64,000 nt of DNA from Halalkaliarchaeum sp. AArc-CO. GTDB lineage: Archaea; Halobacteriota; Halobacteria; Halobacteriales; Haloferacaceae. Below, in pieces: positions 9,319 to 32,328 of the stretch. The number at the start of each line of letters is the position of its first letter. Positions within the stretch are counted from its first letter, which is position 1. A program made the position numbers and the translations under genes. The DNA is taken from contig NZ_CP087723.1 in assembly GCF_024972735.1 (NCBI RefSeq), positions 1-64,000 on the forward strand, in the 5' to 3' direction. The notes below the pieces were generated by a model. That model saw nothing but the letters and a program-made list of their open reading frames with translations, did no database searches and was not told the origin of the DNA.

Positions 9319-11034
9319 ATGAGCAAATCGTTCACGGTTGCCAGCGCGAAGGGTGGCGTTGGCAAAACGACGACGACGGCGAACCTGGGGGCGGCGCTCG
9401 CGGCGGCCGGTCACGACGTAGTGCTCGTCGATGCGGACATCGGCATGGCGAACCTCGGGGCGATGCTTGGAATCGTTCCGGAGGGGCCCACACTCCACGA
9501 CGTGTTATCGGGTGACGCGAACCTCGAGGAGGCGCTTTACGATGGTCCCTGTGGAATGCGCGTTGTTCCGGGGAGCGTCGAACTCGAGGCGTACGCGGGC
9601 GTCGACCCGGCGAAGTTGCGGGAGGTCGTCGAGACCCTGTCGGAATTCGACGGCTACGTCCTCGTCGACAGCAGTGCTGGATTGAGTCACGACAGTTCGC
9701 TGCCGCTCGCGCTCGGCGACGGGACGCTTCTCGTTTCGACGCCGGACCGGGCGTCGCTTCTGGACACCGAGAAAACACGCGAGCTGACTTCCCGACTCGG
9801 CGGCTCGGTACTCGGCGTTGCCCTGACGCGAGTCGAGCCGGACCACCCGATGCTGCAGTCGGCACCGGAGGTACTGGGCGCCGACGTGATCGGAGAGATC
9901 CCCGAAGACGAAGCGGTGACCGCGGCTGCTGCCGCACAGGAACCACTGGAGGTTCACGCGCCGCAGTCTCCGGCTGCGGTTTCCTACCGCGAACTCGCCA
10001 GGGAGCTCACCGGCGAAGCGATCCCCGAACCGGAACCGGAGACGGAGCCAGAATCTGTCGCCATTTCGGGCGGTGGTTCAGAACCCGAAGACGAATCCAT
10101 TTCGGATTCGGGGGAGGAGGCGGAGGAGGCTGCCGTGGCTTCGGGACCGGAGCAGGAGGCGGCGTCCGATGCGGAACCTGAAGACCTGGAGTTAGACGAG
10201 GAGTTGGGTGAGGAGACGGATGAGTCAGAGGAGCTGGAGTTAGACGAGGAGTTAGAGGAGGAGTCGGACGAGTCAGAGGAGCTGGAGTTAGACGAGGAGT
10301 TAGAGGGGGAGTCGGATGAGTCAGAGGAGCTGGAGTTAGGCGAGGAGTCGGATGAGTCAGAGGAGCTGGAGTTAGGCGAGGAGTCGGATGAGTCAGAGGA
10401 GCTGGAGTTAGGCGAGGAGTCGGATGAGTCAGAGGAGCTGGAGTTAGGCGAGGAGTCGGATGAGTCGGAGGAGCTGGAGTTAGGCGAGGAGACGGATGAG
10501 TCAGAGGAGTTGGAGTTAGGCGAGGAGTCGGATGAGTCGGAGGACTTGGAGTTAGAGGAGGAGTTGGGTGAGGAGACGGATGAGTCAGAGGACTTGGAGT
10601 TAGACGAGGAGCCGGAAAACCCGGAACCGGATACTCGTGAAGACGAGGAAGGTTCCGAAGACGAGATCGAACTCGAAGAGCCGATTCAGGAGGCTGGCTC
10701 CGGGAAAAAAGACGAATCGGCGGCGGCCGAAACCACAGCAGAGTCGAACGAAGAAGAACCGGCAGAATCCGGCGGTGAGTTGGCGGAACCCATCCCCGAC
10801 GCAGAGCCGTCTGACGCCCAGGAGGACAGTCCTGACGCGGACGAGGAGTCGGACGAGAACGAACACGACGAAGGCGACGGGAAAACTGCAGAGGACGAAG
10901 CTGACGACGAAGAAGCAGAGGGAGCGGAGGAACCGGAGGAACCGGAGGAACCGGAGGAACCGGAGGAATCTGACGAAGCTGACGAAGAAAAAGAAGAGAA
11001 GAGCGGTTTCTTCAGCAGACTGTTCGGCCGTTAG
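9319..11034 (+). CDS. minD4: MinD4-like ParA/MinD ATPase with long acidic repeat tail
   Basis: A 571-residue protein. Residues 1-235 are a complete MinD/ParA ATPase with deviant Walker A (AKGGVGKTTT, residues 10-19), switch region DADIGMANLG and a Walker B-like YVLVDSSAG. Residues about 240-560 are an extremely acidic low-complexity tail with 12-residue repeats (ELELGEESDESE). The protein ends in a small basic-hydrophobic tip (GFFSRLFGR). In Haloferax volcanii a MinD homologue with a long C-terminal extension, MinD4, was reported to position archaella and chemosensory arrays; this domain layout matches, which is the basis for the name. Gene order around the ATP synthase differs, so orthology is inferred. 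ATG 9319 is placed by the P-loop and promoter. Confidence 0.85.
   Translation: MSKSFTVASAKGGVGKTTTTANLGAALAAAGHDVVLVDADIGMANLGAMLGIVPEGPTLHDVLSGDANLEEALYDGPCGMRVVPGSVELEAYAGVDPAKLREVVETLSEFDGYVLVDSSAGLSHDSSLPLALGDGTLLVSTPDRASLLDTEKTRELTSRLGGSVLGVALTRVEPDHPMLQSAPEVLGADVIGEIPEDEAVTAAAAAQEPLEVHAPQSPAAVSYRELARELTGEAIPEPEPETEPESVAISGGGSEPEDESISDSGEEAEEAAVASGPEQEAASDAEPEDLELDEELGEETDESEELELDEELEEESDESEELELDEELEGESDESEELELGEESDESEELELGEESDESEELELGEESDESEELELGEESDESEELELGEETDESEELELGEESDESEDLELEEELGEETDESEDLELDEEPENPEPDTREDEEGSEDEIELEEPIQEAGSGKKDESAAAETTAESNEEEPAESGGELAEPIPDAEPSDAQEDSPDADEESDENEHDEGDGKTAEDEADDEEAEGAEEPEEPEEPEEPEESDEADEEKEEKSGFFSRLFGR
10190..10610 (+). repeat. 36-bp tandem repeat array in minD4 tail
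   Basis: Successive 36-base units built on GAGGAGCTGGAGTTAGGCGA encode ELELGEESDESE-type repeats. The central units (about 10320-10500) are almost identical at DNA level, while flanking units diverge (LDEELEEESDES). Near-identity at synonymous positions points to recent copy-number change. Confidence 0.9.
10927..10966 (+). repeat. 9-bp tandem repeat in minD4 tail
   Basis: The 9-base unit GAACCGGAG is repeated four times or more, encoding EPEEPEEPEEPEE. This is a second, independent slippage array in the same acidic tail. Confidence 0.85.
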
Positions 11035-21893: not shown

Positions 21894-22808
21894 ATGACGG
21901 ACACCGACGACGGAGACGGATCGCTCGTGGCGCTCGTCGGGGCGACGGGTGGTGCAGGGACGACGCGGACGAGTGTCGAGCTGGCAACGACACTGGCACG
22001 GGGTGGTCGGTCGGCGGTCGTGGTCGACGCGGCGTTCGCCACCCAGGGGCTCTCGGAGTACGTCGCCGGACGGATCGCCCCCGACGTGACCGCCCTCGTC
22101 ACCGACGAGACGAACGTGCCGGTTCGCTCGGCGACCGTCGAACTGGCCGACGCTCCCCTCGACGACGAGGCACAGCACTCGTTCGGCAGCGTCGAACTGC
22201 TCCCGGCCTACGCCCCGTTCGAACGGCTGGCGCGTGCGAAGACGCCCGCGGCCGCAGAGCGGTTCGAGGAGCTGCTCGCTGGCGCGGCTGACGCGTTCGA
22301 TCACGCGATCGTCGACGTGCCGCCGGTGGCGTCGAACCAGGCGATTGCGGCGGTGTCGGCCGCAGACACGGTCGTCGCGGTGACGCCGGCCGACGACCAC
22401 GGAACCGATTCCCTCGTCCGCCTTCGCGATCGGCTGGCGGATCTCGACGTTCCGGTCGACGCCGCCGTCGGCGTTGGCGGGGAGCTGCCGGTCGCGGGTT
22501 CGTCGACCGAGAGTTCGTCGACCGAGAGTTCGTCGACCGAGAGTTCGTCGACCGAGAGTTCGTCGACCGAGAGTTCGTCGTTCGTTAATTCTTCGACGAT
22601 GAATCTGTCGCTTCCCGGGACCGATCCGTCTCCGCACGACGCCCCGTCCTGTCTCGAGGACGACCGCTACGGAGAGGCGCTCGTCGAACTCGCCGAATCG
22701 ACGATCGGCGTTACCCTTTCGATCGCGTTCGAGCCCGAGAGCGTGCGCGACCGTGTGGCTGCCGCCGTCACGGATCGCGTGGGACCGAACGCGACGGACG
22801 GCTCCTGA
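21894..22808 (+). CDS. ParA-like protein with degenerate P-loop
   Basis: A 304-residue protein with the ParA/MinD fold order. Where an active ATPase has the KGGxGKT motif this one has GATGGAGTTRTSVELA, so both signature lysines are absent. The downstream features remain: VVVDAAFATQGLSEY in switch I position and HAIVDVPPVASNQA in Walker B position. An Ser-Thr-Glu repeat linker (five SSTES units, residues about 203-228) separates the core from a short C-terminal segment. It may bind but not hydrolyse nucleotide, or serve as a partner of the genuine ParA at 24443-25099. It is divergent from rpa and convergent with a TFB gene. Confidence 0.78.
   Translation: MTDTDDGDGSLVALVGATGGAGTTRTSVELATTLARGGRSAVVVDAAFATQGLSEYVAGRIAPDVTALVTDETNVPVRSATVELADAPLDDEAQHSFGSVELLPAYAPFERLARAKTPAAAERFEELLAGAADAFDHAIVDVPPVASNQAIAAVSAADTVVAVTPADDHGTDSLVRLRDRLADLDVPVDAAVGVGGELPVAGSSTESSSTESSSTESSSTESSSTESSSFVNSSTMNLSLPGTDPSPHDAPSCLEDDRYGEALVELAESTIGVTLSIAFEPESVRDRVAAAVTDRVGPNATDGS
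22499..22576 (+). repeat. 15-bp tandem repeat in the ParA-like gene
   Basis: Five identical copies of TTCGTCGACCGAGAG encode SSTES repeats. Perfect identity indicates recent expansion by slippage. Confidence 0.92.
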
Positions 22809-22850: not shown

Positions 22851-23714
22851 TCACTCCAGGAGGTCGTGGAACGTGTTCCGGATCGTCACCGGCGTCACGT
22901 CGGCGACGTCGGCTGCCGCCCGCTGTGTGAGATCCGACGATCCGTGCACGTGTGCGGCGGTGTACAGACAGGCGGCGGCGACGCCGCTGGGATCGCGCCC
23001 GACGTCGACTCCGTTCTCGCGTGCGCGATCGGCCAGCTTCCGGGCTCGCCGTTCGATTTCGGGCCCGACGTCCAGCTGTGACGCGAACCGGGGGAGATAC
23101 TCCGCCGGCGGAACCGGACCGACCGGAAGGCCGAGTTCGCGGTTCATCGCGTCGTAGGCCGCCTCGTGCTCGTTCGGTGTTGCTTTGGCGACGTCGACGA
23201 CTTCCTCTACGGTCCTGGCGAGTCCGGCGACCCGACACGCCGCGTACAGACACGCCGAGGCGAACCCCTCGATCGACCGGCCACGGAGCAGCGACTCCCC
23301 TTGTGCGGAGTCGAAGAGGGTACACGCCTGATCGCGCACGTGCTCGGGCAACCCCAGCACGTCCGTCATTCGCCGGATCTCCGTGAAGCCGTACACCTGG
23401 TTCCGTTCCCGCTTCGATCGGATCTTGGTCCGGTCGTGCTGCCGGCGGAGACGGGCAAACTTGCGGCGCTTGCGTCCCTTGACCCGGGTGTGACCGATCT
23501 CGGTCGAGAGCCCCCGGTCGTGACGCGACCGGGTCAGCGGCGCGCCGGTGCGCTCGGGGTTCGTGTCATCGTCCGCGAACGAGCGCCACTCGGGGCCGCG
23601 ATCGATGCGGTCGGCGTCGACGACCAGTCCACAGTTCGAACAGATCGTCTCGTCGCCGTCGGCGTGCAATTGACCGTCACATTCCGGGCAACCAGCGGCT
23701 CGTGCCTGGCTCAT
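22851..23714 (-). CDS. tfb: Transcription initiation factor TFB (paralogue)
   Basis: A 287-residue archaeal TFIIB. The zinc ribbon is CPECDG-x-CSNCG (residues 9-28) and is followed by the B-finger/reader region with EWRSFADDDTNPERTGAPLT. Two cyclin repeats follow (residues about 105-190 and 200-287) with GRSIEGFASACLYAACR and DPSGVAAACLYTAAHV. Haloarchaea carry several TFBs with different promoter preferences. The C-terminus ends soon after the second cyclin fold. The start is fixed by a TATA element 25-30 bases upstream. Confidence 0.94.
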   Translation of the reverse strand: MSQARAAGCPECDGQLHADGDETICSNCGLVVDADRIDRGPEWRSFADDDTNPERTGAPLTRSRHDRGLSTEIGHTRVKGRKRRKFARLRRQHDRTKIRSKRERNQVYGFTEIRRMTDVLGLPEHVRDQACTLFDSAQGESLLRGRSIEGFASACLYAACRVAGLARTVEEVVDVAKATPNEHEAAYDAMNRELGLPVGPVPPAEYLPRFASQLDVGPEIERRARKLADRARENGVDVGRDPSGVAAACLYTAAHVHGSSDLTQRAAADVADVTPVTIRNTFHDLLE

Positions 23715-23735
23715 ACGTGAAGGTTGGTCGCGATG

Positions 23736-23747
23736 GTTTACTTAAAC
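23736..23747 (-). promoter_or_regulatory. TATA-like element for tfb
   Basis: On the minus strand GTTTAAGTAAAC, nearly palindromic, lies 22-33 bases upstream of the ATG at 23714. Confidence 0.6.
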
Positions 23748-23847
23748 GGGGGACGAACGGCGACGAGAACCCCGGAACTACCGCGTCGAACCTACCGGTT
23801 ACCGGTGTGTTCGGAGGGCGAACCGGAGATCTTCGTGACGAATACGG

Positions 23848-23856
23848 ATATTTAAC
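23848..23856 (+). promoter_or_regulatory. TATA-like element for the gene at 23881
   Basis: ATATTTAAC lies 25-33 bases before the GTG at 23881 and supports that start. Confidence 0.6.
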
Positions 23857-23880
23857 TGGGATGAGCAGACAGTCGTTCAC

Positions 23881-24402
23881 GTGACGCTGTCGGACATCGC
23901 ATCGGGACTGGAGGTGACGACGAGCCAGCGCGAGGCGGAGAGTCATGGCGTCGCGACCGTCGACGGGACGGAAGCGACGTTGCGAGAGCGGATCGAACCG
24001 CACGCCGACGAGCTTCCCTGTACCGCAAGCGCCGCCGCCACAGTACTCGAGTCGTACGAATGCGGCACGAGCGTCGGGGAGAGCGCACGCGAGGCGGCGG
24101 TCGCGCCGATGACGGCCGCGAAGGCGCTCCACCGGTGTGGCGTCTCGGGGATCTGTCCGCTGGCGCCGACGAAACGCCGGATCGTCCGGGACTGGCTCGA
24201 CGGCGAACTCTCCCGGAGCGAGGCACAGTCACTTTCCGGTGCCGACGAGGCCGAGTTCGCGCTGGCAACGTACGTCGAAACCCACGATCCGATTCCGGAG
24301 CTGGTGGACGCGGTCGCGACCGCCGGCCGCGGTCGAGATCCCGCGGTCGAAAAGCGGGACGCGCTCGCGGGGACGATGAGCGACGCGACGGAACTCCGAT
24401 AG
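23881..24402 (+). CDS. Haloarchaeal protein of unknown function facing the ParA cluster (DUF7858-like, number from memory)
   Basis: A 173-residue soluble protein that starts with GTG after a well-spaced TATA element. Its centre (residues about 50-110) is helical and includes MTAAKALHRCGVSGICPLAPTKRRIVRDWLDGELSRSEA, which looks like a helix-turn-helix or another small all-helical DNA-binding fold. Two cysteines lie at CGVSGIC. It ends 40 bases from the convergent ParA gene. No function is known to me; position suggests it belongs to the cluster on the opposite strand. Confidence 0.7.
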   Translation: MTLSDIASGLEVTTSQREAESHGVATVDGTEATLRERIEPHADELPCTASAAATVLESYECGTSVGESAREAAVAPMTAAKALHRCGVSGICPLAPTKRRIVRDWLDGELSRSEAQSLSGADEAEFALATYVETHDPIPELVDAVATAGRGRDPAVEKRDALAGTMSDATELR

Positions 24403-24442
24403 TGATCTTCCTTCGCTGACCCGTTTTCGATCCGGACGGTTT

Positions 24443-25099
24443 TCACCGACAGGAGTCTGCCGCTCTCGCGAGTTCTCGGATCCGTTCGGCGGCCGTACTT
24501 TTCGGCGCGGAGTCGGTGATCGGCGTCTCCGTACGGACCGACCGCCCCAGTCGCGGATCCGCTGGTACCGGCGTCACCGGCCCGCCCAGCGCCGACGCCA
24601 TCGACTCCGTCGGCGGTGGATCCACGACACGGTTGCACGCCGCGCCGACCAGTCCGGCATCGAGCTCCCGTGCGAGCTCGCGGGTCCGAACGGCGTTCGC
24701 GAGCGCGAACGGCTGGGGTGAGACGACGAGCAGACACGCGTCCGCAAGCGCCAGTGGAACGCCCACGTCGGTGCGCAGTCCCGCCGGACAGTCGACCACG
24801 AGCGTCCCCCGTTCTCGTTCGAGCGTTTCGAGCACGTCCCGCAGTCGGCTCAGATCCGACGCCCGCGCACCGGAAAGCGATCGGCCACAGGGGACGAGCG
24901 TGACCGGTCCCTCGTGGACACACTCGGTCGGTGCCGCGCGCCCGGCGAGCGCGTCGTGGAGGTCCGGTCCCCGGCCCGCCGGGAGGTCGGCCATCCCGAG
25001 ATCCGCATCGACGGCGACGGCGTCGAGCGCGGCAGCGAGGTTGTACGCGACCGTCGTCTTGCCGACGCCGCCCTTCCCGCCAGCGACCGCGAGGATCAC
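24443..25099 (-). CDS. MinD/ParA family ATPase
   Basis: A 218-residue ATPase with a complete deviant Walker A (GGKGGVGKTTVAYN, residues 7-20), switch I DADLGMADLP and Walker B-like TLVVDCPAGL. It is shorter than canonical MinD and shows no clear C-terminal membrane-targeting helix. GTG at 25099 overlaps the stop of the upstream gene (GTGA), so it is translationally coupled to it. It is the last gene of the cluster beginning at 27104. Partition, positioning or complex assembly are all possible roles for this family. Confidence 0.88.
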   Translation of the reverse strand: MILAVAGGKGGVGKTTVAYNLAAALDAVAVDADLGMADLPAGRGPDLHDALAGRAAPTECVHEGPVTLVPCGRSLSGARASDLSRLRDVLETLERERGTLVVDCPAGLRTDVGVPLALADACLLVVSPQPFALANAVRTRELARELDAGLVGAACNRVVDPPPTESMASALGGPVTPVPADPRLGRSVRTETPITDSAPKSTAAERIRELARAADSCR

Positions 25100-25860
25100 G
25101 CGAACCGCTCCAGTGTGTCGACCGGAAGTTCGACAGATCGTGCCCGGTCGGCTCGCGACTGTGCCCGGGCTGCGTCCTCCAGGGCCTGCTCTGCGGCTCG
25201 ACGCAGCCGATCTGCTCTCGAACGGAGCCGCGATGCGTACCCCTCGAGGATCTCGGCGTCCTCCTCCAGTGCCCTGTCGAGCACTCTCGCGATTTCGATT
25301 CCTGTATGGCCGACGGGAGCCGTTTCGTCCCCGACGAGAGCTGTCTCTGCGAGTTCCTCCAGTACGTCTGCTGCCCCTTCGACGCCCGTCGTTTCCAGCC
25401 GTTCTCCGAGCTCGATCCGTCGGACCGCCCGATCGATGTCGTCGCTATGCTCCGGTGGGTCGTTCCGGCTCTCCGCGACCGATTCGCCTGCTCCAGTCGT
25501 CTCCGGTTCGGTGACGGCCATTCGGGGCGGCCGAAACGTTCCGAGAGAGCGTCTCGCGCGGGATTCCGTGTCGTCCTCCGGAGCTGGCCCTCGGCCGGTG
25601 GACTCGATTTCGACGGCAGGATCCTCCGGCGGCGAGGAACAGGCGTATCCGATCCCGATCGTCTTTCCGGCGGGAACCGTGATCGTGACTCCCGTTTCGT
25701 CCCAGCCACGCTTCGGAACGCCGTTTTTCCGTGGCGGCAACACGGTACCGCCGAGCCGGTTTTCCAGTCTGGCGTGCCGTATCACGGGTGCGGGGTTGTG
25801 CACGCTCGCCGTTACGAACGTCACCCCGTCCCGTCGTTCGACGTCGTGCTCCAGGTTCAC
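25096..25860 (-). CDS. Uncharacterised cluster protein with N-terminal beta domain and C-terminal coiled coil (DUF7857-like, number from memory)
   Basis: A 254-residue protein starting with GTG. Residues 1-75 are strand-rich (VTFVTASVHNPAPVIRHARLENRLGG, GVTITVPAGKTIGIGYACSS) and resemble an immunoglobulin-like sandwich. An acidic linker follows (residues 80-140). The C-terminal 100 residues are helical with a coiled coil (RLRSRADRLRRAAEQALEDAARAQSRADRAR). No signal peptide or membrane segment is present. It overlaps the ParA gene by 4 bases. Such a layout could make it the partner of the ParA ATPase; no function is known. Confidence 0.75.
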   Translation of the reverse strand: MNLEHDVERRDGVTFVTASVHNPAPVIRHARLENRLGGTVLPPRKNGVPKRGWDETGVTITVPAGKTIGIGYACSSPPEDPAVEIESTGRGPAPEDDTESRARRSLGTFRPPRMAVTEPETTGAGESVAESRNDPPEHSDDIDRAVRRIELGERLETTGVEGAADVLEELAETALVGDETAPVGHTGIEIARVLDRALEEDAEILEGYASRLRSRADRLRRAAEQALEDAARAQSRADRARSVELPVDTLERFA

Positions 25861-25890
25861 GCCGACGAGTGCTTCCTCTTCCGGTTTGAA

Positions 25891-26769
25891 TCATTCCTCG
25901 CAGAGCCAGACGTCGACCTCCAGGATGTGGGCCGCCCGCCCGGCGTCGCCGATGGCGGTCTCGCTGGCGTCGACCACGATCGGCACCTCGAGGTCCGCGA
26001 GCGCGACGGCGGCCAGCTGTGATGCCGTTCCCCCGAACTCCGATCCGATCGTCCCGTTCGAATCTCCGTCGACGAGCGATCCAGCGCGCTTCCGGGCTGC
26101 ATGGAACTCCTCGGACAGCGCGTCTGCGAGGGTCGCTCTCGCCTCCCGTCGCCGGTTCTCGAGGCGGTCCTGCAGCTTCAATCGCCGATTCCGAACGCTC
26201 CGCGCCTTTCGAGCATCCCGCTTTGCCGCCTCGAGCGCCTGCTCGGCCGCGATCCGCTCGGTCGACGCCTCCGACAGCTCTGCGACCGCCGCTTCGAGCG
26301 CCTCGGTTGTTTCCTCGGTCGACTCGCCGAGCTCCCGCTCCGTTCGTAGCCGGCCGCGAAGCGCCGCGATCCGCTCTCGCAGCTCCGCCTCGTTCCTCGA
26401 GACCTCGACGATCTTCCGTTTCGCCGCTTCGAGCTCCCGTTCGGGATCCGGCAGCTCGATCGAGGAAAGCTCCGCTTCGAGATCTCGTATCACGTCGTCG
26501 TGTGTGGTCGTCAGTCCACGTGTCCGTGCTGCGGCGGCCACCAGCCGCCGGACGGTCGTCTCGGGTTTTCCGGCCGGGCCGAGCACGTCGTATGCCTCCG
26601 GGTCGCCCGGACGCTGTTTGCCTCCCTCCGAAGTTATTCGAGCGGTGGCGACCAGCTCGTCGATCCTCTTCCCGTCCCGGATCGCGGCGTGAGCGGCAGC
26701 CGGTGACACGCCGAGGTCGCGTAGATCCCGCCCACACGTTCCGGCGGACCATCCACGTCCCCTGCTCAA
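25891..26769 (-). CDS. Long coiled-coil protein of the ParA cluster (DUF7856-like, number from memory)
   Basis: A 292-residue protein. The N-terminal 100 residues are a small domain (GRDLRDLGVSPAAAHAAIRDGKRIDELV, GPAGKPETTVRRLVAAAARTRGL). Residues about 105-225 form a continuous Arg/Glu-rich coiled coil. The C-terminus (QLAAVALADLEVPIVVDAS, then HILEVDVWLCEE) has a strand-helix pattern slightly like the end of SMC/Rad50-type ATPase heads, but there is no Walker A at the N-terminus, so that comparison is weak. Start is an unusual TTG that overlaps the upstream stop as TTGA; a GTG at 26709 would remove 20 residues. Confidence 0.75.
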   Translation of the reverse strand: MSRGRGWSAGTCGRDLRDLGVSPAAAHAAIRDGKRIDELVATARITSEGGKQRPGDPEAYDVLGPAGKPETTVRRLVAAAARTRGLTTTHDDVIRDLEAELSSIELPDPERELEAAKRKIVEVSRNEAELRERIAALRGRLRTERELGESTEETTEALEAAVAELSEASTERIAAEQALEAAKRDARKARSVRNRRLKLQDRLENRRREARATLADALSEEFHAARKRAGSLVDGDSNGTIGSEFGGTASQLAAVALADLEVPIVVDASETAIGDAGRAAHILEVDVWLCEE

Positions 26770-27104
26770 AGCTCTCGCCCCCGGAGTTCGTCCGGATCCG
26801 GAAGTTCGGTACCGGCGGCGAACTTGGCGTACGGCGTGTTCTGTTCCCTCCGTTCCTCGTAGGCTCTCGCCGCCGTTCGAATCCGCTCGGAAACGTCTGC
26901 GAACTCGTTGAACGGCTCGGTTCGCTCGATCTGGACGTCCTCACCGTGCTTGTACCGCATCCGTAGCGCCAGGAACCCCGCAAACGCAGTCTCTACGAAC
27001 AGGACCGCCCGTCCGAACCGCTGGACGACGACGTCCGCGTGTGACCGACAAACGTTTCGCAACGTCGTCCGCGCCTCCTGCGAATACGTCGCCACGAACA
27101 ACAT
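26766..27104 (-). CDS. First gene of the ParA cluster, unknown function (DUF7855-like, number from memory)
   Basis: A 112-residue soluble protein beginning MLFVATYSQEARTTLRNVCRSHADVVVQRFGRAVLFVETAF. It is probably an alpha/beta fold. A charged C-terminal half includes RERRxQNTPYAKFAAGTELPDPDELRG-like sequence. The ATG at 27104 is chosen because a TATA-like AT-rich element lies 24-31 bases upstream; an earlier in-frame start at 27125 would cut into that promoter. Its stop overlaps the next gene by 4 bases. Confidence 0.75.
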   Translation of the reverse strand: MLFVATYSQEARTTLRNVCRSHADVVVQRFGRAVLFVETAFAGFLALRMRYKHGEDVQIERTEPFNEFADVSERIRTAARAYEERREQNTPYAKFAAGTELPDPDELRGREL

Positions 27105-27127
27105 ATATTCGAAGAATTCCGACACTC

Positions 27128-27135
27128 AAATATAT
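27128..27135 (-). promoter_or_regulatory. Promoter of the ParA cluster
   Basis: On the minus strand ATATATTT lies 24-31 bases upstream of the ATG at 27104. The surrounding 70 bases (27105-27175) are the most AT-rich non-coding stretch in this part of the window. Confidence 0.6.
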
Positions 27136-27175
27136 CTTTCGAGAATAGATACAACAATAATATCTGTGGAATATA

Positions 27176-27456: not shown

Positions 27457-30400
27457 TCACGTGGTCCGGAGGTGGTTCTGCCGCGGTTCGTACACCTCGC
27501 CTTTCGCGCGGAGCTTCTCGATTTCGTCTTCAGCCTTGGTGGGATCCATCCCCACCTCGTCGGCCCGCTCGAGAACTTCGTCGACCGGCGCGCCCTCCTC
27601 GAACTCGTCTTCGAGCTCCTCGATGAGTCCCTTCAGGCTCTTGATCCGGTCGCGCTGGCTCTTCGAGGTGCCGGTCTCGATCACGTCGGCGTCGAACTGG
27701 CCGGTTTCGGGGTCGACGCCGATGTCCTGGAGACTCGACTCGACGATGTCGATCACCCGCTCGGCGTCCTCGCGGTCGACGGTGTCGGACAGCCGGACGC
27801 GGGCGCTCGCCTCCGAGAGCCGCACCAGCGCCTCCAGCTTCCGGGCGGTCACGGGGACTGGGGCGTCCTCGTCGGCGCCCTGGGCACGCAGGTCGACGTA
27901 GAAGTCTCGGATCGCTTCCCGCGCCTCGTCGGTCATCGTCGGGAAGCAGTTGCGCTTCGCGTAGGCGATGTACTTTCGCAACAGCTCCTGGTCGAGCACC
28001 GGCTCCACCTCCTGGGTGGCCTGCTGGACCTCCGATTCGGTGAACTCCGAGGTGGCGAGCCGCTCGCGCTGGGTGTTCATCTCCCCGGCGTAGTTCGTCG
28101 TCAGGATGTGATCGGCCAGCCGGGCGTCGTGGTCGGGATCCGGCTGGTCGGTGACGGTGAAGATGAGGTCGAACCGCGAGATCAGCGCCGGCTCCAGGTC
28201 GATCTGCTCGCCCAGTGGTTCGTACTGGTCGAACCGGCCGTACTTGGGGTTCGCGGCGCCCAGCAGCGAACAGCGGGACTTGAGGGTGGCATTTATTCCG
28301 GCCTTTGAAATGCTGATAGAATTGTGGAGCACGACGCCCTTGCTGACGAACGTGTTCGTCGGTTCTACGGTGACGTCGTACACCCAGTCGCAGGCGTTTT
28401 CGCCCTCGTTCGGGATCCGTTCGACGTTCCTGATTCGGTAATACCGCAGGTCGCCGTTTCCGTCGGAGCGGTCAGAGCGTTCGGGCTCCCCGGTAGCGAT
28501 CTTATTCGGCGTGTCCTCCACGACGGCGTCGACGAACCGACCGACGGAGTCGCCCATGACGTACACCTTCCAGGAATCTTCGGCGGTGTCGTGGTGGGTC
28601 CGCGACGCGACGCCGATCTTCGAGAGCGCGTCCGCGTAGTCTTCGGCGAGCCCGGGGGACGCCGTCGAGAATGACATCGCTTCGCTCTCGACGCCGCCGT
28701 CCCCGGCGAACGCGCCCACGAGGAACCGTCGGATTTCCTCCTGTGAGGCCGCGAGCACCTTCGCCGGGATTCGCTTGTCCCTGGCCGTGTTCAAAAGCTC
28801 CGGAAAGTTCGACTCGAACCATCGGTAGAGCTTCGTCGAAATCAACGCCATCGTAATCGTACCGGCCGCATTCGCATGATCCGCGGTCGACATACCGAAG
28901 AGGTCGTCGACGAGTTTCCCGACTCGATCGAGCAGTCGCTGGTCCTGGTTCGAGAACCCGATTTCGTGGGTGCGACCCACGTACGAGTGTCCCTCCGCGA
29001 CGAGGAATCCAAGGAACTCCGCGAGTTTCGGGCTCATCTCGTCAGGCAACGTCACGTCCGTTTCCTTTCCGACGTGAGGCGCCTCCGCCAGTTCGACCGC
29101 CGCGGCCGAATTCGGCAACTGTCGCGGTGCCGGAACGAACTCGTCGACGTCGACGTCGCGTGCGGGGACGGTTTTCGTCTCCCCGTCCCTCGAAACGAAC
29201 ATGGGGTGCTCGGGGGTCACGGTGACGCTGCGGCCGTTGGAGAACGTCACCCGGACGAACTCCTCGGGGGCTTCGTGGCGGCTGACTCGATCGACGGGGA
29301 CCTTTCGCGTCTCGTTCGTTTCGAGATCCGTCGAGTGGACCGAGACGTCGTCGACGGGAAGGATCTCGCAGTCTACGCCGTCTGTGACCTCGTCGTTTCG
29401 CTCCGAGAAGAGCCGGTCGACGAACGGACCGATCTCCACGCGCCTGCCGTCCGCGAGCAGTACCTCCGTTTCCGGGTGGTATGACTGCTGTTCCAGCGCT
29501 TCGTGCATCGCAGACCGGTCCTCCGATCGCATCTTGTCCAATTCGTCGACTGCCGCGATCCCCTTGTCCGCGAGCACGAGCGCGCCGGCCTCCAGCGTCC
29601 ACTGCTGGCCGTCGCCGAAGTCGTCGCGTACAGCTGCAGCCGTAAGCCCTGCCGAACTGCTTCCCTTCCCCGAGGTGTACACCGATCTCGGGGCGATGTT
29701 TTGGATGTAGGAGAGCAATTGGGAGTTGTGTGAGACGATCCCGTTCGAGAGGTAGTTGTGAGTCCCCTTGACCTCAAGATCGTAGACCCATTCATATGAT
29801 GGGTCGATCTCTTCGATTCGTTCTATTTTATCCCACTGAACCTGATTCTCGACGAGATTTGTAAGGGACTGGATACGCTCGCCGATTCCTCGTCCACCGT
29901 CTGTGAGAGATCGACTTTGAACTGGTTCTCTTTCGTCAAACGTGTTTTTGAACTGCGAAACGACGGTTCGAAGGCTGGTTCTACTTGGATTTCGGTCTCC
30001 CCGTTCGTAGTGCTGGTACGTTGTACGGGGTATGCCACACTCCCTCTGCGTTAACTCAAGACTTTCCCGCAGGTCACGCAATACATCTCCCATGCTAGGA
30101 ACGACATCGGTGTTGGTATTGCTCCGTACCTCTTTAAATCGGGACGCTGTTTTTGATTTCCGTTCCGAGATGAATCCGATTTCATTAATATATCTCGCAG
30201 CATCGTTTCCGGATATTCTGAGACGATAGCTTCCATTGTCTCTTTCGCGTAATTGGCTGTATATACCGAAAAATAGCAACAAGTGTTGGACATCTTCGAG
30301 CAGCTCTTTGCTCATTGAGGCAACAGTAATTTCACGTTGCGTCGTCGAAACGTGACTCTCGCCCTCGATATACGCCTTTAAGAATTCCCGTTTCGTTCGT

Positions 30401-32145
30401 CGATTTGCTAACTGGATTGCAGCCGGCACTCGCTGGGCAGCAGAGCCTTCGAGTAGTCTTTGATCTATGTTTTCGAGTAGACTGGCTAATTGTCCAGACG
30501 ATGCAATAACTTCACGCGCAGATTTGCCTCTGTGAGGATCTCGTTCAAAGTAATTGACGTTGATTCTGTCTAACGCATCTTTCACATCTGAGAGTATCTC
30601 CTCATCGTTATTACAAATCGAAATAAACCCGGTGTTATCGTCCCTCCGTTCAACGTACCCTTCGGCAATGATATATCCGAGTAATCGTGCGAGGGATGGG
30701 GTCCATTCCTCGGGAAGTTCGAGCGGTTGTGAATTGGCCGACCGCGAACGTCTATACTCTCCAGGGAACGTGTCGTCTCCTTTCGTATCTAGGGTCCTTG
30801 GCGTTGCTATAAACGTTCCCTCGGTGAGATCATCTGCAACAACCGGCGACGGTTCTCCGCCCGATTGGACATACAACGGATGCGACGGTGTGGCCTCGAT
30901 TTCCTTTCCCGATGCTGTCCGAATACGGATCATTCGTTCTGGTGCCTCACGTTTCCATACTCTCGTGGCATATCCAGCATTGAATGTCCCGTCACGATTC
31001 ATCGAGGGAAGACATATATCGACCTCGTCGTACACTCCGTCGTCGACCGGCTTTGGGTCGTCGAGGGTATCCTCGACCAGTTCGCGTATTGGCACCCGAC
31101 GGCCGTCCGCCAGCGTCACCATCGTATCCCCGGCGACGCATTTCCCCGTGCCAGGATCTCCGATCAACAGCATGTGCAGGTCTCCCCGGATCCGGGAGCC
31201 GTCCGGGAGGTGTTTGGTGACGCCGGAGAACAGCTGGAGGATCATCGCGAGTTTCTCCTGTTCGTAGCCGTAGATCGACGGCGCCACCGAATCGACCATC
31301 TGCTGATAGATGTCGTCCTCGCTCGAGCGTTCGATGATGTCCTGGACGTCGTCCTGGGTGATGTCCATGTCCTCGAACTCCTCGTCCTCGATCGAGATGG
31401 AGACGCCGTCCATGTACAGGTCGAAGACGGGAGTCTTCTCGTTGCCGTCGGTCATCTGCTCGATGTGTAACACGCCGGCGACGGTGACGTGGTCGCCGGG
31501 CGTCACCTTGCCAGTAATGTCGTCTTCGACGTCGACGTCGATCGCCTGGGGTGTCTGTCCCCCGCGCAGCCCCTCGGGCGACTCCTGAACCCGAAGCTTC
31601 TGGGAGTCGATGAACTCCGATTGATCGTGGTTGACGCGGAACGGACCCTGTCGCTCACAGCCCTGACACTCGTGGGGCTCCTGAAAGCCCGAATCCGACT
31701 GGGGGATGTAGGTCATCGTCCCGCAGCGCTGGCACTCGAAGGCGGCTTCGGTGATCTTCGGGCGGACGTCGGTCGCCTTCCGGACGATCCCCTGGACGGC
31801 GATCATCCGGCCGATGTGGTCGTCCTGGACACGGATCCCGCGAATGTCGATCGTTTTCGATCGCGGGAGGTTCTCGACCCGAACGTGAGCCTGTCCGAGA
31901 CTCACGTCCGCCGGAAGGTCGTACAGCCGCAGCGCCTCCTCGGCGTACTCGCGGAACTGTTCCGGCTTTGCCAGGTAGTCCTCCGCGAGGTCGGGATCGA
32001 ACGTGTACAGGTCGTCGTAGTCGACGTACAGCGACCGCTGTTCGTTGGGGTATCGCTGGGCGAGCTGCCCGATCTGCTCGCGGTAGTAGTTGCGGTAAAA
32101 CTGGATGAATCGCTCGGTGAGGTCGTCCGTTCCAGCCGTGGCCAT
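27457..32145 (-). CDS. mcm: MCM replicative helicase precursor with two inteins
   Basis: A precursor of 1562 residues; removing two inteins (472 and 388 residues) leaves a 702-residue MCM, the normal haloarchaeal size. Extein features: a four-Cys zinc site CQRCG and CQGC (near residue 140-165), Walker A GDPGTGKS split by intein 1 between Lys and Ser, Walker B AAVDELDKM, sensor/hairpin region MHEALEQQSISISKAG split by intein 2, arginine finger region LISRFDLIF, and a C-terminal winged helix. MCM is the ring helicase that unwinds DNA at forks. ATG 32145 (MATAGTDDLTERFIQFYRNYYRE) matches homologues; an ATG at 32166 with GAGGT upstream is an alternative. Confidence 0.96.
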   Translation of the reverse strand: MATAGTDDLTERFIQFYRNYYREQIGQLAQRYPNEQRSLYVDYDDLYTFDPDLAEDYLAKPEQFREYAEEALRLYDLPADVSLGQAHVRVENLPRSKTIDIRGIRVQDDHIGRMIAVQGIVRKATDVRPKITEAAFECQRCGTMTYIPQSDSGFQEPHECQGCERQGPFRVNHDQSEFIDSQKLRVQESPEGLRGGQTPQAIDVDVEDDITGKVTPGDHVTVAGVLHIEQMTDGNEKTPVFDLYMDGVSISIEDEEFEDMDITQDDVQDIIERSSEDDIYQQMVDSVAPSIYGYEQEKLAMILQLFSGVTKHLPDGSRIRGDLHMLLIGDPGTGKCVAGDTMVTLADGRRVPIRELVEDTLDDPKPVDDGVYDEVDICLPSMNRDGTFNAGYATRVWKREAPERMIRIRTASGKEIEATPSHPLYVQSGGEPSPVVADDLTEGTFIATPRTLDTKGDDTFPGEYRRSRSANSQPLELPEEWTPSLARLLGYIIAEGYVERRDDNTGFISICNNDEEILSDVKDALDRINVNYFERDPHRGKSAREVIASSGQLASLLENIDQRLLEGSAAQRVPAAIQLANRRTKREFLKAYIEGESHVSTTQREITVASMSKELLEDVQHLLLFFGIYSQLRERDNGSYRLRISGNDAARYINEIGFISERKSKTASRFKEVRSNTNTDVVPSMGDVLRDLRESLELTQRECGIPRTTYQHYERGDRNPSRTSLRTVVSQFKNTFDEREPVQSRSLTDGGRGIGERIQSLTNLVENQVQWDKIERIEEIDPSYEWVYDLEVKGTHNYLSNGIVSHNSQLLSYIQNIAPRSVYTSGKGSSSAGLTAAAVRDDFGDGQQWTLEAGALVLADKGIAAVDELDKMRSEDRSAMHEALEQQSYHPETEVLLADGRRVEIGPFVDRLFSERNDEVTDGVDCEILPVDDVSVHSTDLETNETRKVPVDRVSRHEAPEEFVRVTFSNGRSVTVTPEHPMFVSRDGETKTVPARDVDVDEFVPAPRQLPNSAAAVELAEAPHVGKETDVTLPDEMSPKLAEFLGFLVAEGHSYVGRTHEIGFSNQDQRLLDRVGKLVDDLFGMSTADHANAAGTITMALISTKLYRWFESNFPELLNTARDKRIPAKVLAASQEEIRRFLVGAFAGDGGVESEAMSFSTASPGLAEDYADALSKIGVASRTHHDTAEDSWKVYVMGDSVGRFVDAVVEDTPNKIATGEPERSDRSDGNGDLRYYRIRNVERIPNEGENACDWVYDVTVEPTNTFVSKGVVLHNSISISKAGINATLKSRCSLLGAANPKYGRFDQYEPLGEQIDLEPALISRFDLIFTVTDQPDPDHDARLADHILTTNYAGEMNTQRERLATSEFTESEVQQATQEVEPVLDQELLRKYIAYAKRNCFPTMTDEAREAIRDFYVDLRAQGADEDAPVPVTARKLEALVRLSEASARVRLSDTVDREDAERVIDIVESSLQDIGVDPETGQFDADVIETGTSKSQRDRIKSLKGLIEELEDEFEEGAPVDEVLERADEVGMDPTKAEDEIEKLRAKGEVYEPRQNHLRTT
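28321..29484 (-). other. Intein 2 of MCM, with LAGLIDADG endonuclease
   Basis: A 388-residue insert between EALEQQ and SISISKAG. It starts with Ser rather than Cys (SYHPETEVLLADGRRVEIG) and ends SKGVVLHN before an extein Ser. The block B motif is VTPEHPMFV. Endonuclease motifs are LAEFLGFLVAEG and FLVGAFAGDGGVE, each with a retained acidic residue, so it may be active. The DNA composition is as GC-rich as the host gene. Confidence 0.93.
29725..31140 (-). other. Intein 1 of MCM (Walker A site), with LAGLIDADG endonuclease and HTH domain
   Basis: A 472-residue insert after the Walker A lysine. It begins with Cys (CVAGDTMVTLADGRRVPIREL) and ends SNGIVSHN before an extein Ser, so both splice junctions are intact. 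The block B motif is ATPSHPLYV. Endonuclease motifs are LARLLGYIIAEG and FLKAYIEGESHV, both retaining an acidic residue. Between the second motif and the C-terminal splicing block lies a Cro/C1-type helix-turn-helix (DLRESLELTQRECGIPRTTYQHYERG). Much of the DNA is AT-richer than its surroundings (one sampled line, 30121-30180, has 28 G+C of 60). Confidence 0.95.
29950..30090 (-). other. Cro/C1-type HTH within intein 1
   Basis: Intein residues about 350-397 read MGDVLRDLRESLELTQRECG, then IPRTTYQHYERGDRNPSRTS, the typical XRE-family five-helix pattern. In an intein it most likely helps the homing endonuclease bind its target DNA. Confidence 0.8.
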
Positions 32146-32328
32146 CGCGCCGGGATACGTCGGCATCACGTATGAACCTCATGCTCGCGGGGCGGAACTG
32201 AACAGTTGCAAACCACATGACAACTTCCTGCCGTCGGTCGGGATGTCGAAGGCGCAATTGTTTCGGTGGTCTCTACAGAATATGACCGTATGCAGGTGCT
32301 GGGTGACGCTGGCTATCCTGGCGGGGGG

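Follow-up and report, generated by a model that had tools for sequence, protein, structure and literature searches.

Which of the genes around a haloarchaeal MinD-type ATPase act together with it? ParA/MinD ATPases act together with a hydrolysis-stimulating partner, and several of these partners use a short peptide carried on unrelated domains (PMC7993993). For haloarchaeal MinD proteins, according to a 2024 paper, no clear MinE-equivalent partner has been identified (PMC11621097). The 64,000-nt stretch of Halalkaliarchaeum sp. AArc-CO DNA analysed here in its entirety (the window) carries such an ATPase gene at the end of a run of minus-strand genes located between mcm and tfb. The initial annotation had suggested that this locus could encode a single system composed of an ATPase, a coiled-coil scaffold and a possible DNA-binding protein. 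Our comparison across haloarchaea instead divides it into two gene pairs that travel separately and a bystander.

Organization of the cluster

The five open reading frames assigned to the cluster by the initial annotation are all present, and each has a Pfam match above cut-off (DUF7855, 3.9e-53; DUF7856, 6.8e-53; DUF7857, 5.7e-31; DUF7858, 6.3e-77; and ParA/CbiA for the 218-aa ATPase). Matches are whole-length for all but DUF7857, in which the N-terminal part of the product of 25096-25860 is matched. Pfam records no function for the families DUF7854 to DUF7858, and the literature searched makes no mention of them. The features of the region are as follows.

23881..24402, plus strand: DUF7858 protein (Pfam), 173 aa; bystander, outside the system
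24443..25099, minus strand: minD1, ParA/MinD-type ATPase, 218 aa, KGGVGKT P-loop
25096..25860, minus strand: DUF7857 protein (Pfam), 254 aa; candidate MinD1 partner
25102..25446, minus strand: DUF7857 residues 139-253, optional helical hairpin/coiled coil
25513..25563, minus strand: DUF7857 residues 100-116 (SRARRSLGTFRPPRMAV), motif in the linker and candidate contact peptide for MinD1
25591..25857, minus strand: DUF7857 residues 2-90, Ig-like beta sandwich (AlphaFold2, pLDDT ~95)
25891..26769, minus strand: DUF7856 protein (Pfam), 292 aa, coiled coil at its center; starts with TTG
26769..27104, minus strand: DUF7855 protein (Pfam), 112 aa, ferredoxin-like fold (predicted structure)
27127..27136, minus strand: GATATATTTG, candidate TATA box for transcription from DUF7855 to minD1, at -32 to -23 relative to the start codon
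27176..27460, minus strand: DUF7854 (Pfam), outside the cluster and flanking it, directly after mcm

Both of the 4-base overlaps described earlier are found: the TTG start of DUF7856 overlaps the DUF7855 stop (TTGA), and the DUF7857 stop overlaps the minD1 start (GTGA). The proposed AT-rich promoter upstream of the four minus-strand genes agrees with the AT content across 97 loci, which reaches its maximum (up to 0.88) at about positions -34 to -26 counted from the start codon of DUF7855, as fits a promoter of their own with the TATA box of a leaderless mRNA. DUF7854 overlaps the mcm stop by 4 nt in the window and abuts (gap 0) or overlaps mcm in most loci; it is a member of the mcm unit that flanks the cluster. 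The mcm gene itself (27457-32169, minus strand) carries two inteins, with two Intein_splicing stretches and LAGLIDADG domains, and the first intein contains an HTH domain.

Conservation of this gene order across Halobacteria had been proposed as a check on the cluster. The usual order, mcm-DUF7854-DUF7855-DUF7856-DUF7857-MinD, frequently with tfb next on the opposite strand, recurs in most of the 80 haloarchaeal loci compared besides the window, far beyond chance. Among 197 genomes sampled across the phylum, all DUF7855 matches fall inside the taxonomic order to which the window belongs.

The ATPase is MinD1

Haloferax volcanii MinD1 (HVO_0225) is the orthologue of the window ATPase. When 61 proteins were placed in a tree, every DUF7857-linked MinD fell into a single clade (support 97/96), separate from the remaining MinD paralogues. 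The H. volcanii numbering (mcm, HVO_0220; minD1, HVO_0225; a tfb, HVO_0226) fits the usual gene order, and the interval from mcm to minD1 has room for four genes, as in Haloferax loci. The earlier description of a complete ParA/MinD ATPase is borne out, and a coupled partner gene is conserved beside it in relatives. KGG[VI]GK[ST] is kept in 91 of 94 MinD1 orthologues, and the conserved positions include D31 and D103-x-P-A-G. An apparent P-loop loss in one genus (g25) was an alignment artefact, the P-loop being intact. Two MinD1 proteins (L141 and L142) read KGGVGTS, in which threonine takes the place of the Walker A lysine, and DUF7857 with its linker motif is nevertheless kept in both. The window protein scores 131.5 bits against the NCBIfam model minD_arch (TIGR01969) and does not reach its cut-off of 201.75 bits.

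MinD1 has no C-terminal amphipathic membrane-targeting tail, as judged by eye; nothing follows its last conserved helix (...AAERIRELARAADSCR), the orthologues being alike. The protein would thus be cytosolic, DNA-bound or recruited by a partner. By contrast, a longer MinD paralogue of the window (~9320-11034, plus strand) bears a long acidic repeat tail (repeated ESDESEELELGE) and ends in SGFFSRLFGR, which resembles a membrane-targeting helix. It groups in the tree with the long-ORF MinD of a Haloferax-type genome and is probably MinD4, a protein that in H. volcanii has a long tail.

The initial annotation had considered the system undescribed. This holds for the function and partner of MinD1, of which we found no description in the literature searched, as we found none of the two-module structure or of a relation between a motif and MinD1. 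The ATPase itself, however, has already been named in H. volcanii and deleted in a quadruple minD mutant. That mutant has no reported growth, division or FtsZ-positioning defect (PMC11588486), so that the role of MinD1 is dispensable in the laboratory. It swims like the minD2/4 double mutant; i.e., additional removal of MinD1 and MinD3 did not worsen the motility defect (PMC11621097).

These features bear on the possibility that MinD1 and DUF7857 form a switch controlling not position but an enzyme or transcription, comparable to the FlhG/FleN anti-activators or to cofactor-assembly P-loop proteins. The tail-less ATPase, the lack of a known division, growth or motility phenotype (PMC11588486, PMC11621097), the presence of tfb and mcm among the neighbors and a weak sequence match of MinD1 to FleN are consistent with it. 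However, the nearest solved relatives are archaeal MinD proteins, aligned over nearly the whole length (1hyq, 7.6e-25; 1g3q, 1.3e-17), the paralogues MinD2 and MinD4 act in positioning (PMC11588486, PMC11621097), and the conserved positions of MinD1 include no CxxC-type cofactor site. We consider such a regulatory role unlikely.

DUF7857-MinD1 and DUF7855-DUF7856 are inherited separately

Among 145 haloarchaeal genomes, DUF7857 and MinD1 occur together in 101, DUF7857 alone in 4, MinD1 alone in 1 and neither in 39 (101 of 106 genomes with either gene; Jaccard 0.95), MinD1 being called from the score gap to its paralogues, with best matches of ~126 bits or more. DUF7855 and DUF7856 are likewise coupled (89 of 93; Jaccard 0.96), and cross-pairs between the two sets reach 0.74 to 0.78. 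Shared ancestry inflates such counts, and comparison within genera therefore matters: seven genera mix species with and without DUF7857-MinD1, and each species has both genes or none. DUF7857 and MinD1 overlap by precisely 4 nt at 87 of the 92 loci. No fusions of the two genes were found when looked for.

The DUF7857-MinD1 pair also relocates as a unit away from mcm-DUF7855-DUF7856 (L111-L130, G312, G313, G314 and G316), and both of its genes are gone in G315 and G317. In 19 genomes, DUF7857-MinD1 occurs without DUF7855, and in 10, DUF7855 occurs without MinD1. The four genes thus make up two pairs that travel separately, contrary to the single system first proposed. The same observations bear on the notion that the genes adjoin merely through synteny of the mcm-tfb region, with no functional link. 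In its favor, mcm and tfb still flank the set after internal losses (L117 and L125); against it, DUF7857 and MinD1 stay joined after leaving that region, are jointly present or absent inside the seven genera and conserve their overlap. As an account of DUF7857-MinD1, synteny without function is disfavored, and we regard it as very improbable.

A further alternative is one four-gene machine, in which DUF7855, DUF7856, DUF7857 and MinD1 always act jointly as ATPase, scaffold and adaptor. It is in line with the single conserved promoter, with the order kept in most loci and with the tendency of the DUF7857 helical hairpin to accompany DUF7855/DUF7856. Beyond the genomes with only one of the pairs, it is at odds with hairpin-less DUF7857 proteins that occur alongside DUF7855/DUF7856 (L141, L142 and the genome of L114) and with a long DUF7857 without DUF7855/DUF7856 in L123, which breaks the hairpin link. 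An obligate four-protein assembly thus seems improbable.

Relocated pairs with a short DUF7857 lie near a second MinD-like protein at nine loci (L116, L118, L119, L121, L122, L126 and L128-L130), which in the two scanned (L116 and L119) is a fusion of a MinD-like protein and DUF7125 (KaiC-like). A functional clue was sought in these surroundings; many pairs adjoin a ParA-DUF7125 fusion, but their other neighbors vary. Nearly all haloarchaea carry DUF7125 (140 of 145 genomes), and in the genome of the window it lies beside a small MinD-like gene (C2:1852040-1853354). Its placement beside MinD-like genes suggests that two MinD systems may be linked.

DUF7855 is the best conserved member of the cluster (74% mean column identity). 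Its predicted structure is a ferredoxin-like fold (pLDDT 96), with UreE as the best match in a fold search (Z 7.5; 56 residues, 1.9 A), a common fold. The best match of the DUF7857 sandwich, the delta-COP mu-homology domain (Z 8.2; 84 residues, 2.2 A), is likewise a common, Ig-like fold, and no function could be read from either. PDB profile searches with DUF7855, DUF7856 and DUF7857 returned no significant hit indicating remote homology. In the lineages that carry them, DUF7855 and DUF7856 are candidate cargo.

A linker motif of DUF7857 accompanies MinD1

DUF7857 is modular. AlphaFold2 (58 sequences) places the sandwich at residues 2-90, a short helix at 98-105, a weakly predicted linker and long helices at 139-242. 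The linker contains a 17-residue motif, AVRELGDPRPPRDAV (alignment consensus, AAAVRELGDPRPPRDAV), that is internal or C-terminal depending on the form of the protein. Long forms comprise sandwich, motif and hairpin; short forms (~120-150 aa) lack the hairpin and carry the motif C-terminally, after the sandwich. MinD1 is present with both. The coiled coil is thereby ruled out as the MinD1-binding part. In Natronomonas-type proteins, sandwich and hairpin are kept, the motif is cut out between them, and MinD1 is absent. These proteins are not split into two ORFs; each is one ORF with the linker deleted.

To score the motif, each protein's own motif was left out of the profile, and the threshold was set at the 1% null of shuffled tails. 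The motif exceeded it in 119 of 122 DUF7857 proteins beside MinD1 and in 0 of 6 Natronomonas-type proteins from loci without MinD1, a loss that probably happened once in evolution and is counted six times here, which leaves few independent contrasts for the link between motif and MinD1. The three failures beside MinD1 are L124 and the degenerate L117 and L130; in L124, the motif is missing and the MinD1 P-loop, too, is altered, with E in place of its signature lysine. A clear exception is Haloquadratum L052, which keeps the motif, with no MinD1 found in its assembly. Arginines are frequent in the motif without being strictly conserved (78, 70 and 52 of 104 sequences).

DUF7858 is a bystander

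The convergent 173-residue gene said to close the cluster is indeed present and convergent, but its membership did not hold. In 50 of 50 loci, DUF7858 and tfb form a divergent pair separated by a median of 169 bases, and tfb is nearer than DUF7858 to MinD in 43 of 44, with the window as the only exception. The divergent tfb-DUF7858 pair (22851-24402) is inverted in the window with respect to all 43 relatives compared, and this local inversion accounts for the convergent placing of DUF7858 beside minD1. DUF7858 thus belongs with tfb, and a fifth cluster member is ruled out.

A conserved lysine-less ParA-like protein adjoins tfb-DUF7858. In the window it is a second ParA/MinD-like protein of 304 aa (21894-22808, plus strand), encoded between tfb and rpa, whose P-loop reads TGGAGTT instead of KGGxGKT, with both lysines lost. 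A lysine-less GG[AV]G loop is found in 46 of 48 relatives, and the other two have no such loop.

Discussion

The pairing of minD1 with DUF7857, their stop/start overlap, their joint gain and loss, the tie between motif and MinD1 and the modular build of DUF7857 come directly from the comparison of loci. From these sequence relationships, we lean toward a two-protein ParA/MinD-type switch in which MinD1 would be the ATPase and DUF7857 its dedicated partner, with DUF7855 and DUF7856 as a separable second module. DUF7857 probably contacts MinD1 through the linker motif AVRELGDPRPPRDAV and may stimulate or gate its ATP cycle, while the Ig-like domain, together with the hairpin in many lineages, would hold a cargo or scaffold. 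DUF7855 and DUF7856, usually behind the same promoter, may be the target of the switch or its scaffold. Physical contact, ATPase activation and spatial positioning as the outcome are what we infer from this arrangement.

DUF7857 appears to fit the pattern of an activating partner both by genetics and by motif. The pair would resemble the bacterial MinDE, ParAB, McdAB and PomXZ systems, in which the ATPase has a dedicated partner whose short conserved peptide is attached to an unrelated domain (PMC7993993). The peptide of known activating proteins has an essential Arg/Lys (PMC7993993). Differences are also evident: here the candidate partner is Ig-like and the ATPase lacks a membrane tail, and the activating peptides described so far are N-terminal, whereas the DUF7857 motif is internal or C-terminal. 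No sequence relation of DUF7857 to MinE, ParB, McdB or PomX was detected; for the first three, Pfam, NCBIfam and solved-structure profiles gave no match or significant hit. Among haloarchaeal MinD paralogues, MinD2 of H. volcanii similarly has a conserved same-operon neighbor with predicted contact, HVO_0596 (PMC11588486), the deletion of which gave no phenotype. A bolder version, in which DUF7857 would be a new class of ParA/MinD activator that uses a linker peptide and bridges MinD1 to DUF7855-DUF7856, the whole making up a positioning system of haloarchaea linked to the replication gene neighborhood, strikes us as rather doubtful, if worth stating.

DUF7857 is almost never inherited without MinD1 and is on that ground the strongest candidate to date for the missing MinD1 partner. 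MinD1 now has a named candidate partner and a 17-residue motif to mutate, and Natronomonas offers a natural experiment that removed both MinD1 and the motif. With H. volcanii as a tractable host in which minD1 has already been deleted, the claim can be tested quickly.
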